Assembly (NCBI RefSeq): GCF_014217685.1
Contig: NZ_CP043653.1
Coordinates: 1,120,419-1,184,418, forward strand
Reading direction: 5' to 3'
Length of the DNA: 64,000 nucleotides
From: Glaciihabitans sp. INWT7
GTDB taxonomy: Bacteria > Actinomycetota > Actinomycetes > Actinomycetales > Microbacteriaceae
This document shows positions 38,053 through 42,525 of this stretch, one piece after another (position 1 is the stretch's first letter; each line of letters begins with the position of its first letter). The position numbers and the translations under genes are program-made. The notes beneath the pieces were generated by a model. It had not been told where the DNA came from and did not search any database. It was given only the letters and a program-made list of their open reading frames with translations.

Positions 38053-38918
38053 CCCTTCAGGAATCGCGGGCGATCGCGGCGGCAGTGGATGCCCCTCCGG
38101 CCCCGCGCGGCCCTCGCGTCCGCTTCAGCCTCGGCAGCTGGTTGCTTCCGGTCTACACGGCGCTCGCGCTCGTGTTCCTCCTGATCCCCATCGCCTATAC
38201 TTTCATCTTCTCGTTCAACGACTCCATCAAGTCGAACATCTCCTGGCGGGGGTTCACCCTCGACAACTGGACCCATGTCTGTGACGCGCAGGATGTCTGT
38301 GCGGCCTTCGGCAACAGCATCCTGATCGGGGTCATCGCGACGGTGGTCGCGACGACCCTCGGTACGATGATCGCGATCGCGCTCGTGCGCTACCGCTTCC
38401 GATTCCGTTCGGCGATCAGCCTGCTGCTGTTCCTGCCGATGGCGACTCCCGAAGTGGTGCTCGGCGCCGGCCTCGCTGCGGAATTCCTCGGAGCCGGAGT
38501 GGAAAAAGGGCTGGTCACGATCATCATCGCCCACACCATGTTCTGCATCAGCTTCGTGGTGGTCACGGTGAAAGCGCGCGTGTCCAGTCTCGACCCCGCC
38601 CTCGAGGAGGCCGGTCGCGACCTCTACGGATCTCCGGCCCAGGTGTTCTGGCGCATCACGTTCCCGCTGCTGCTCCCGGGCATCGTCGCGGCGGCGCTGC
38701 TGTCCTTCGCCCTCAGCTTCGACGACTTCATCATCACCAACTTCAACTCCGGATCGGCGACGACCTTCCCCAAGTTCGTCTACATCGCGGCGGCCCGCGG
38801 CATTCCGGCGGAAGCGAACGTGATCGCCTCCGCGGTATTCCTCATCGCCATCGTCCTGGTGGTGTCGCAGCAGGTGAGTGCCGCGGCACGCCGGAAGCGA
38901 CTGGCGAAGGTCGGTTGA
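38049..38918 (+). CDS. Polyamine ABC transporter permease (PotC type)
   Basis: Second membrane subunit, 289 residues. It has about six helices, starting LLPVYTALALVFLLIPIAYTFIF at about residue 31, the EAA loop LEEAGRDLYGSPAQVFWRIT near residue 195, and the PotC-type segment SFALSFDDFIITNFNSG. GTG 38049 overlaps the PotB stop (GTGA) and the last base of its stop is the first base of the aminotransferase ATG, so translation is coupled through the whole operon. Confidence 0.93.
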   Translation: MTLQESRAIAAAVDAPPAPRGPRVRFSLGSWLLPVYTALALVFLLIPIAYTFIFSFNDSIKSNISWRGFTLDNWTHVCDAQDVCAAFGNSILIGVIATVVATTLGTMIAIALVRYRFRFRSAISLLLFLPMATPEVVLGAGLAAEFLGAGVEKGLVTIIIAHTMFCISFVVVTVKARVSSLDPALEEAGRDLYGSPAQVFWRITFPLLLPGIVAAALLSFALSFDDFIITNFNSGSATTFPKFVYIAAARGIPAEANVIASAVFLIAIVLVVSQQVSAAARRKRLAKVG

Positions 38919-40273
38919 TGGCCTACGAGGATCGAGCTCGGCTGGCCGGGCTCTGGCAGGCCGAGATCGACCTGTTCCGTGCCCAGCGTCCGCGTTCGGC
39001 ACAACTCTTCGCGGAGGCCACCCCCCACCTGCCCGACGGCGTGCCGATGCTCTGGATGGCGAAGTGGCCGGGGCCCTGGCCCGTCTACGTGCAGAGCGCA
39101 TCGGGTTCTCACTTTCTCGACGTTGACGGCATCGACCACGTCGACCTGTGTCTCGGCGACACGGGCGCGATGTGCGGCCATGCGCCCGCGGCCGCCGTGG
39201 CGGCGATCTCCGCGCAACTCGCCAAGGGCTCGACCTTCATGCTCCCCACGGCTGATGCCGCTGCTGCCGCTGCACTTCTCGCCGAGCGTTTCGGGGTGCC
39301 GGCCTGGCAGTTCAGCCTCTCCGCGACCGATGCCAACCGCAGCCTGATCCGTTATGCCCGCCAGGTGACGGGCCGCCCGAAGATCGTGGTGCACGACTAC
39401 TGCTACCACGGCACCGTCGACGAGGCCTATGCCACCCTCGACGAATCGGGGGCAGTGGTCGAGCGCCGGGGCACGATCGGGGCGCCGGTACCGCCGAGCC
39501 TTACCACGGCGGTCGTGCCCTTCAACGACATCCGGGCACTCGAGATGATGCTGGCGACGGGTGAGATCGCCGCCATGCTCATGGAGCCGGCCCTCACCAA
39601 CATCGGAATCGTGCTGCCCGACCCGGGCTACCACGCGGCCGTTCGCGAACTCTGCACCCGCTTCGGAGTGATCCTGATCATCGACGAGACCCACACCCTG
39701 TCCGCCGGGCCCGGCGGGATGATCGCGCGAGACGGCCTCGACCCGGACGCAGTTGTCGTGGGAAAGAGCATCGGCGGAGGCATTCCCGCGGGAGCATATG
39801 GAATGACCGCGTCGTTCTCGGCCCTCGTGCGCGACTCGCTCGAACTGGAGGACATCGACGTCGGGGGAGTCGGCGGCACCCTCGCGGGTAATGCGCTGTC
39901 CCTCGCGGGCATCCGTGCCACCCTCTCGCAGGTGTTGACCGCCGAGGCCTTCCCGGCGATGATCGATCGCGCCACCGAATGGACGATCGGCGTGCAGTCG
40001 GCTCTCGACGAATTCCACGTGCCCTGGCAGGTCACCCAGCTCGGCGCGCGGGCGGAATACAGCTTTCGGCAGACAGCGCCCCACGATGGCGCAGAGGCGG
40101 CGGATGCCGATGACTTCGAACTGCAGCAGTACCTCCACCTGCACGCACTCAACCGCGGCATCCTCATCACGCCGTTCCACAACATGGCACTGATGGCCCC
40201 GAGTACTACGGCGGCCGACGTCGAGCGGCACACCGTTGCTTTCCGCGAGGCGGTAGTGAGCCTTTACGCCTGA
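38918..40273 (+). CDS. Class III aminotransferase linked to polyamine uptake
   Basis: PLP-dependent aminotransferase of 451 residues from ATG 38918 (a TTG three bases earlier is unnecessary). The PLP lysine is in VVVGKSIGGGIPAGAYG (about 285), the acidic partner in LIIDETHTL, and the fold motif near FSLSATDANRSLIRYAR. The sequence resembles the glutamate-1-semialdehyde-aminomutase-like branch of class III (HAPAAAVAAISAQLAKGSTF, FRTFRGAY absent), often misannotated as hemL. Being the last gene of a polyamine importer operon, it most likely transaminates the imported amine or an omega-amino acid derived from it. Substrate not determinable here. Confidence 0.88.
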   Translation: MAYEDRARLAGLWQAEIDLFRAQRPRSAQLFAEATPHLPDGVPMLWMAKWPGPWPVYVQSASGSHFLDVDGIDHVDLCLGDTGAMCGHAPAAAVAAISAQLAKGSTFMLPTADAAAAAALLAERFGVPAWQFSLSATDANRSLIRYARQVTGRPKIVVHDYCYHGTVDEAYATLDESGAVVERRGTIGAPVPPSLTTAVVPFNDIRALEMMLATGEIAAMLMEPALTNIGIVLPDPGYHAAVRELCTRFGVILIIDETHTLSAGPGGMIARDGLDPDAVVVGKSIGGGIPAGAYGMTASFSALVRDSLELEDIDVGGVGGTLAGNALSLAGIRATLSQVLTAEAFPAMIDRATEWTIGVQSALDEFHVPWQVTQLGARAEYSFRQTAPHDGAEAADADDFELQQYLHLHALNRGILITPFHNMALMAPSTTAADVERHTVAFREAVVSLYA

Positions 40274-40336: not shown

Positions 40337-40394
40337 CGAGTTGCACTCTTCTGCGAGCTCGCGCGCACTCTCACCCGCAAAAGAGTGCACCTCG
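40337..40394. repeat. Hairpin repeat copy A, downstream of DUF559 gene
   Basis: 19-bp arms (40337-40355 and 40376-40394) pair at 17 of 19 positions around a 20-bp loop. The left arm reads CGAGTTGCACTCTTCTGCG. A second copy lies at 41379-41436 on the other side of the gene. It ends 12 bp from the DUF559 stop and could also act as a terminator. Confidence 0.8.
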
Positions 40395-40406
40395 CTTGTG
40401 CTGGCG

Positions 40407-41303
40407 TCAGCGACAGGCAAGCAGCCGACGGATGCGCATCACGAGCTCGGCCGGATCCTTCAGGTCGCCGGCGTTCAACTCCATCACTCGCCAGCCGACG
40501 GCCTCCAGCTTCGATCGACGGGTCATGTCTGCCCGCCACTGCCCCTTGGTCGTGCGGTGGTAATCGCCCTGGTACTCGAGCACCAGGCGAAGGCCCTCGA
40601 AGATGAAATCGGTGCGGGCGACGAACTCTCCGAATCGGTCCGTCACCTCGCGATTAATCTCAGGCGTCGGGAATCCGGCGTCCTCGACGATCAGACGGAG
40701 CCGAGATTCCGGCGGAGATTCGGAGCGCTCGTTGAGGCGCAGTACCGCTCGGGACAGTGCGCGGAATCCACGCCGTCCGCGTCGCAGGCGAAGCGCCTTC
40801 TCGAGGGCGACCCTGGTGGTGAAAGGCCTTCGCCAGTGGATGAGGTAGTCGCCCGCGGCGACGAGATCCTCGAACGCGAGCTGGTCCGCGAGGTCGGTCC
40901 AGGTGCGCACCGTGGAGGTGACCCGGAGCCCCGACAACATGCTGACATCGGAGGGCACTACTGCCAGCCGGTGCCCCACCACCCCGCTCGCGGAGAGGGC
41001 CCGCGACGGCGACGGGACGCCCACGTGAAGCCGATCTGCGTGCTCGAGGGCCCAGGGGAGCGGGATGCCATGGATGAGTGCGGCGGTCGAGTGGCTGAAG
41101 AATGCGCGTCCGGGCATCCTCAACTGCAGGAGCGCGCACCTGTCGTGGAGGTCTGCCGGTGGGCTGGTCGCACGAACGCCCCACAGGCTGCGATCGAGGT
41201 CTCCCGCACGCAGGCGGCTTGGAGTGACTCCGAAGCCCCGCGCGGTGCCGACAGTGAATCCGTGCGCGGGAAGGCCTGGCGGGAGGGCAGCGGCTCGTGT
41301 CAT
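40407..41303 (-). CDS. DUF559 PD-(D/E)xK nuclease-like protein with AbiEi-like amino end
   Basis: A 298-residue protein of a type frequent and highly variable in actinobacteria. The first 190 residues resemble the AbiEi-like/winged-helix region of such proteins (FFSHSTAALIHGIPLP, TSTVRTWTDLADQL, FEDLVAAGDYLI). The carboxy part is a DUF559 domain related to Vsr-type endonucleases: ESRLRLIVEDAGFP, then RTDFIFEGLRLVLEYQGDYH with Asp and the E-x-Q dyad, and WRVMELNAGDL. The start at ATG 41303 gives the usual length; no good ribosome site is seen. A copy of the same hairpin repeat flanks it on each side. Activity and target are unknown; a selfish or defence role is an inference. Confidence 0.8.
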   Translation of the reverse strand: MTRAAALPPGLPAHGFTVGTARGFGVTPSRLRAGDLDRSLWGVRATSPPADLHDRCALLQLRMPGRAFFSHSTAALIHGIPLPWALEHADRLHVGVPSPSRALSASGVVGHRLAVVPSDVSMLSGLRVTSTVRTWTDLADQLAFEDLVAAGDYLIHWRRPFTTRVALEKALRLRRGRRGFRALSRAVLRLNERSESPPESRLRLIVEDAGFPTPEINREVTDRFGEFVARTDFIFEGLRLVLEYQGDYHRTTKGQWRADMTRRSKLEAVGWRVMELNAGDLKDPAELVMRIRRLLACR

Positions 41304-41378
41304 CCGTCGAGGGTGCCAGTACGGGCTCCTCTTCGCGCGAATCGTCCACAGGAGCGCGAGTGAGCGCGATTCCGGGCG

Positions 41379-41436
41379 CGAGTTGCAGTCTTTTGCGACC
41401 TCTCGCTGAAGTGCACCCACAAAAGACTGCAACTCG
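41379..41436. repeat. Hairpin repeat copy B, upstream of DUF559 gene
   Basis: 19-bp arms (41379-41397 and 41418-41436) pair at 18 of 19 positions around a 20-bp loop. Left arm CGAGTTGCAGTCTTTTGCG. Compared with copy A, the tenth base pair is G-C instead of C-G, so both arms changed together. The rest of the 250-bp gap (41304-41553) shows no gene. Confidence 0.8.
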
Positions 41437-41553: not shown

Positions 41554-42525
41554 CTAGAGACCCCGCACGAGCTCCGACACGCGGATGGCTCCCACCGGCA
41601 GTCCTCCGCCGAGCACCCTCTCGGTGGTCAGGGCGCCAACTCGGTCGGCGTCCTCGAGCGAAATGGCGCCGACCGAGGCCAGCATCCCGAGCCCGACGAG
41701 AGAGGTCGCGCGAGCGCTGCCATCCAGCATCTTGAGCGCCACGGCCGTGCCGTCGGGGGCACCCATCACGATGACACCCTCGGCACCGCCCTTGGTGAGC
41801 AGGCCGAGCTGTTCGATCACGACGGTGTTGGCGCGACCCGGCCCATCGATCGCCCAGGGCTCGGCCAGCACCGCGGCCGTGAGGAGCGCCGCGGAGGGAT
41901 CGCGTGACGCCGCGACGCGCCCGACAGCGGTCGCGAGTCCGCGAAGCGTGGTCGCGAACACCGGTGCGCCACAGCCGTCGACGCCGATATGCCCCACCGG
42001 TTCACCGGTGAATTCCTCCACCGTGGCGCGGATCCGCTGCTGCAGCGGATGCTCCGGGTCGAGGTAGCTCGCGGTGTCCCAGCCGTTCTCCACACAGGCC
42101 AACAGAAAAGCAGCATGCTTGCCGGAACAGTTCATCGTGATGCGCGCGGGGGCGGATGCCGCCGACCGCGACGCGCTGTCGAGCGGCCAATCGACGGGAC
42201 ACTGCAGGGCCTCCACGTCGAGACCGGCCCGCTCGAGAATCGAACGGACCACCTCGACATGGGCTGCCGTGCCCGCATGACTGGCCGTCGAGAGCACGAG
42301 TTGCGCCCCGGCGAGGGACACCCCTGAGCGGAGCACGGCGATGGCCTGGAAGAACTTGAGCGACGAACGGCCGTATACGAGGGCATCCACGTCTCCGAGA
42401 GAGCGCAGCACAGAGCCATCCGGTGAGACGACGACCGCCGCGCCGAGGTGCCGCGATTCGTCGAGCCCTGATCGCGAGAGGATCGCCAGTTCGACGACGC
42501 CGGTGGGGTCGAGGGGGTGGCTCAC
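41554..42525 (-). CDS. Asparaginase family protein (type II, PF06089-like)
   Basis: A 323-residue protein of the L-asparaginase family found in rhizobia and actinobacteria (distinct from E. coli AnsA/AnsB). Seen are LAILSRSGLDESRHLGAAVV, the S-x-x-K pair in GRSSLKFFQA (about 51-60), the ITMNCSGKHAAFLLAC motif (about 117-132), a second YL-DPEHPLQ segment and VDGCGAPVFATTL. It presumably hydrolyses asparagine to aspartate and ammonia. GTG 42525 overlaps the stop of gabT (GTGA), so both are in one operon. In most genomes this family is cytosolic; no signal peptide is seen. Confidence 0.88.
   Translation of the reverse strand: MSHPLDPTGVVELAILSRSGLDESRHLGAAVVVSPDGSVLRSLGDVDALVYGRSSLKFFQAIAVLRSGVSLAGAQLVLSTASHAGTAAHVEVVRSILERAGLDVEALQCPVDWPLDSASRSAASAPARITMNCSGKHAAFLLACVENGWDTASYLDPEHPLQQRIRATVEEFTGEPVGHIGVDGCGAPVFATTLRGLATAVGRVAASRDPSAALLTAAVLAEPWAIDGPGRANTVVIEQLGLLTKGGAEGVIVMGAPDGTAVALKMLDGSARATSLVGLGMLASVGAISLEDADRVGALTTERVLGGGLPVGAIRVSELVRGL

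Follow-up and report, generated by a model that had tools for sequence, protein, structure and literature searches.

At positions 40407..41303 of the window (the whole 64,000-nucleotide stretch of DNA that was analysed), a gene on the minus strand encodes a 298-residue protein that combines a DUF559/MTES_1575 (Vsr-type PD-(D/E)xK) nuclease domain with an AbiEi-like N-terminal part, as assigned from Pfam, PADLOC, alignments and a structure model (m6496ad6ba110; pLDDT 79.5). The gene most likely starts at the ATG at 41303, which yields the 298 residues, rather than at a TTG within the upstream hairpin. Just outside its ends lie hairpin A, downstream (40337..40394), and hairpin B, upstream (41379..41436), both assigned to the minus strand. 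This unit is flanked in turn by an aminotransferase gene (38915..40273, plus strand) and an asparaginase-like gene (41554..42506, minus strand).

The protein scored 22.5 bits against PF04480 (DUF559), above the gathering cut-off of 20.6; its match to PF18741 (MTES_1575), which has been treated as a Vsr REase domain (PMC3710099), stayed under the cut-off in Pfam, and NCBIfam offered no named family. The Vsr/DUF559 domain covers residues ~196-291 (40431..40718, minus strand) and carries conserved E199, D232, E243-x-Q245 and H249, the catalytic acidic residues (E199, D232, E243-x-Q245) being fully or almost fully conserved in alignment A2. Judged by its residues, the nuclease motif is intact; DNA cleavage itself is inferred. 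Among solved structures, that of the homing endonuclease I-Bth0305I (3r3p; Foldseek E-value 0.0075, probability 1.00) comes closest in both sequence and fold. The AbiEi-like region spans residues ~16-150 (40854..41258, minus strand), where the PADLOC AbiEi model matched with E=2.7e-11, and 48 of 52 members match this model. No AbiEii nucleotidyltransferase toxin gene is adjacent, the neighbours as judged from the open reading frames of the window being the aminotransferase and asparaginase-like genes, and no transposase domain was found in the protein by Pfam, NCBIfam or PADLOC, which returned DUF559, MTES_1575 and AbiEi.

The two hairpins each span 58 nt, share 78% identity and the same orientation, and have 20-nt loops; hairpin A begins 12 nt past the stop of the nuclease gene (gene end 40407). 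Each contains a 56-bp core that opens with GA and closes with TC (40338-40393 in A, 41380-41435 in B). A preliminary description of the locus had reported two such hairpins bracketing the gene, and their positions, shared orientation and loop length were confirmed. The 19-bp arms that it had described are present but imperfect, with 17 of 19 positions paired in A and 18 of 19 in B, and the change from a C-G pair (40346/40385) to a G-C pair (41388/41427) is real but on its own weak evidence that pairing was kept. Since the arm sequence GAGTTGCACTCTTTTGCG, allowing up to 3 mismatches, matched four times in the window against 0.04 expected, all four being arms of A or B, the arms are not a product of chance. 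DNA folding z-scores were -3.0 for hairpin A and -7.8 for hairpin B.

We compared the similarity of 5' and 3' flanks at 95 non-redundant homologous loci in the Microbacteriaceae; flank clustering by tblastx was not used, being too noisy in GC-rich DNA. At a cut-off of 20, 69 of the 95 loci exceeded the threshold, as against 6 of 800 comparisons of flanks between loci and 0 of 374 shifted windows; lowering the cut-off to 16 gave 79 of 95, 28 of 800 and 9 of 374, respectively. A matched palindrome pair is thus found at 69-79 of the 95 loci depending on the cut-off, with controls at 0-3.5%, and a clear pair is lacking at roughly one locus in six to one in four. By median, the upstream copy starts ~117 bp before the aligned start of the gene and the downstream copy ~12 bp past its end; the upstream copy ends ~50-60 bp before the aligned start. 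The relative orientation of the two copies is mixed (41 of 81 direct). Of the DUF559 loci examined in further families of actinobacteria, most likewise had similar flanks on both sides (between-locus 99th percentile, 22), often with the palindromes in tandem; some of these matches are of low complexity and uncurated. The proposed linkage of hairpin and PD-(D/E)xK gene, likened beforehand to that of REP hairpins and their nuclease, is supported by the 69 loci that exceed a threshold not attained by any shifted control, with the qualification that hairpins also occur alone. Relatives carrying the gene without hairpins, which would have spoken against it, are not the rule, most being bracketed by matched, genome-specific hairpins.

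The palindromes have a common plan. A GA...TC foot was present in 96 of 123 strong palindromes, GA being the commonest of all sixteen dinucleotide feet and GAGT and GAGG its most common variants. Among these 96, whose sequences differ, 81 measure either 56 nt (45 palindromes) or 55 nt (36 palindromes). Stem mismatches of the G.T and A.C kinds were about equally frequent (97 and 107), which favours DNA over RNA as the form in which the structure is adopted or recognised. A reading of the palindromes as RNA structures was unsupported, G.T not being favoured over A.C in the stems.

Across the family the scanned homologues keep the same layout with an ever-changing palindrome sequence. When 27 concatenated hairpins were compared with their 26 genomes, each genome matched its own hairpin among the matches listed, with one exception there, between two genomes of the same genus. 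Paralogues within one genome carry different matched pairs, as at L072, L162 and L163 of G321. Hairpin similarity followed protein similarity (Mantel r 0.34, greater than in all 2000 permutations), a correlation that arises in part because common descent contributes. With close pairs left out, the outer arm correlated best with residues ~76-160 (r 0.26; permutation maximum 0.17) and more weakly with the nuclease domain (r 0.10). This covariation with residues 76-160, drawn from 60 sequences, is only suggestive.

Beyond A and B, the genome of the window holds at least seven further, solo copies of the palindrome, found by an arm search (contig C1: 146294, 360505, 1010314, 1438868, 2292654, 2851566 and 3109570), with the same 56-bp geometry as the A and B cores. 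All seven lie between ordinary genes, mostly 20-90 bp past a stop codon. As only the A/B pair brackets a gene, the hairpin family is small and dispersed, and a single one of its sites carries a gene. The strict arm pattern of this genome had no matches in relatives. With a looser end pattern, the congeneric genome G011 yielded 14 hairpins equal in the eight terminal bases and different in the interior, one pair of which brackets a DUF559 homologue of ~40% identity. Elsewhere in G011 two hairpins 406 bp apart bracket a 104-residue open reading frame that is not a DUF559 gene (L056:4039-4499).

Empty sites, which the preliminary description had proposed to look for in relatives, were found using the aminotransferase gene as the marker. 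In five congeneric genomes (G003, G012, G004, G010 and G007) the asparaginase-like gene directly follows the aminotransferase gene, with neither hairpin nor nuclease. At the same site a related hairpin stands alone behind the aminotransferase gene of G002, and G001 has a complete hairpin-gene-hairpin unit whose protein is 60% identical; in both, the next gene is another aminotransferase, and the G001 assembly is fragmented. In G007, which is empty at this site, a 58% identical homologue lies elsewhere, away from the aminotransferase/asparaginase neighbourhood. As some close homologues share that neighbourhood, part of the pattern is vertical inheritance. Two further observations concern aminotransferase genes: another G001 contig has a different hairpin (CGTTTCTCCGGAG...CTCCGGAGAAACG) at the equivalent position behind one of them (L197), and in G008 (L202:2850-3090) a second copy of the last 24 aminotransferase codons follows the gene, separated from it by an inserted stretch, an arrangement that may be an insertion trace.

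Turnover could also be followed in the genus of G220, in which 28 species were searched and six of nine solo sites followed (L259-L261 were left out). At these six orthologous sites the palindrome was absent, present or of another type. G731 was empty at four of the six, G732 and others carried their own types, and some of these sites were occupied in G731, G733 and G741 by unrelated types. Since orthologous intergenic sites may be empty, filled or filled with another type, the palindromes turn over. The expectation that a solo type has a cognate gene was met in G732, G733 and G741, in each of which DUF559 genes flanked by the genome's solo type were subsequently identified; for two solo types, that of G731 at L262 and that of G736 at L254, no cognate gene was found in the own genome. 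No target-site duplication was recognised at the six sites, no conserved insertion site was identified, and at the G220 solo sites no trace of a former gene was left in relatives. In G220 itself one nuclease gene was found together with about a dozen palindromes of the same type, and in the cases looked at there was one gene per palindrome type. The solo palindrome of G220 at L254 immediately follows an asparaginase-like gene, a type of neighbour also seen in the window. In G741 a DUF559 gene lies in two overlapping frames, apparently frameshifted (L328/L331, G741:C45:231288-232150), and a palindrome of the G741 solo type still flanks it.

We interpret hairpins A and B and the gene between them as a cognate nuclease-palindrome system that works in a REP/RAYT-like manner and is unrelated to REP/RAYT, a reading to which we assign a probability of roughly 0.6. 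The linkage, cognate pairing, near-constant length and turnover of solo copies are shown by the data. REP/RAYT (PMC8266576, PMC3733652) and homing nucleases are the analogues from which we infer that the nuclease drives the spread of the palindromes, no movement having been observed.

The foremost competing explanation, which we consider unlikely, is that the palindromes are operators to which the AbiEi-like domain binds, repressing its own gene, with the solo copies being a regulon or neutral leftovers and no mobility involved. AbiEi proteins bind inverted repeats in their own promoters, the N-terminus of the protein is AbiEi-like, and the distance of the upstream copy from the aligned start would suit an operator. 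Against an operator role stand the second full copy just behind the stop at most loci, the solo copies 3' of unrelated genes, the turnover of sites between species and the intact nuclease motif.

It is improbable, in our estimation, that the unit is an insertion-sequence-like transposon with the hairpins as its ends, the solo copies being left by deletion between hairpins. The compact layout, the solo hairpin of G002 and full unit of G001 at the same place, and the G007 homologue outside a neighbourhood that is empty there would all fit such an element. It is weakened by the many same-type palindromes accompanying one gene in G220, whose solo sites retain nothing of a former gene in relatives, by the occurrence of both relative hairpin orientations and by the lack of a transposase domain.

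The hairpins might instead terminate transcription or stabilise mRNA 3' ends, have a sequence preferred by the genome and merely happen to lie near the gene. Strong folding and the position of most solo copies 3' of genes, often between convergent genes, would agree with this, but the copies read lack a T-run, G.U is not favoured over A.C, same-genome paralogues have different matched pairs and shifted positions are not bracketed, which makes this reading very hard to sustain. Equally remote is self-marking defence, in which the nuclease attacks DNA lacking or carrying the palindrome: the AbiEi-like and restriction-type domains are in its favour, as are the weak PADLOC matches that 11 of 52 members gave to a methyl-directed restriction enzyme, but no toxin partner adjoins the gene in the window and the palindromes are too few per genome to mark self.

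Under the preferred reading of a cognate nuclease-palindrome system, the element would be a DNA palindrome, 55 or 56 bp long, that has GA...TC at its foot and a sequence particular to one nuclease. The nuclease gene would sit between two copies, as far as seen once per type, with other copies solo between genes and mostly close to the 3' end of one. The AbiEi-like part may read the outer palindrome arms, and the Vsr-type domain may nick or cut DNA either where the palindrome lies or at sites without one; neither binding nor cutting has been observed. Repair of the cut could then spread new copies in a homing-like or REPtron-like cycle.

In the REP/RAYT systems (TnpA-REP, REPtrons), palindromes are dispersed between genes, and monomeric or multimeric cognate palindromes flank the gene; RAYT belongs to the HUH tyrosine transposases, and REPs carry GTAG (PMC8266576, PMC3733652). 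As in REPtrons, the gene here is flanked by palindromes that are also dispersed in the genome, and enzyme and palindrome co-diverge. Here, however, the enzyme is a PD-(D/E)xK-type nuclease with an AbiEi-like part, the 55/56-bp palindromes have a GA...TC foot in place of GTAG, and copies per genome are fewer than those of REPs, at roughly ten. Since the HUH transposase and the GTAG foot are both absent, the system is not a REP/RAYT member. I-Bth0305I, the best match by sequence and fold, shares the nuclease fold of Vsr-type enzymes; it is intron-encoded and homes to a gene, and we know of no palindrome partner for it or for Vsr-type nucleases. The N-terminal region matches models of AbiEi, the antitoxin of type IV toxin-antitoxin systems, but here it is fused to a nuclease without an adjacent AbiEii toxin gene.

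The open-access papers searched contained no description of such a nuclease-palindrome system and gave no link between DUF559 and hairpins, none of the 14 that mention DUF559 dealing with hairpins in its title or abstract; subscription papers and preprints were outside the search, and priority is not established. With REPtrons as the established analogue, the system looks like an undescribed counterpart of the partnership between REP repeats and their transposase. A more far-reaching proposal, which we advance tentatively and rate at slightly under an even chance, is that it represents a second, independently evolved actinobacterial class of nuclease-driven dispersed palindromes, in which an AbiEi-like domain would read the outer arms, a Vsr-type homing-like nuclease would spread the palindrome, fixed in length at 55/56 bp, to intergenic sites, and types would replace one another at a given site as nuclease specificity changes.

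Actinobacteria commonly carry DUF559 genes, for which there is no explanation; up to eight homologues were found per genome. If each owns a palindrome family, many hypothetical proteins would gain a testable substrate, and a REP/RAYT-type partnership would have arisen on at least two occasions, with distinct enzyme chemistries. The dozens of natural nuclease/palindrome pairs, with differing sequences and near-fixed length, would make it possible to decipher the DNA recognition code. The genome of the window has a second DUF559 paralogue (L234, G000:C1:3164973-3165860) of 37% identity, whose flanking repeats are weak and degenerate.
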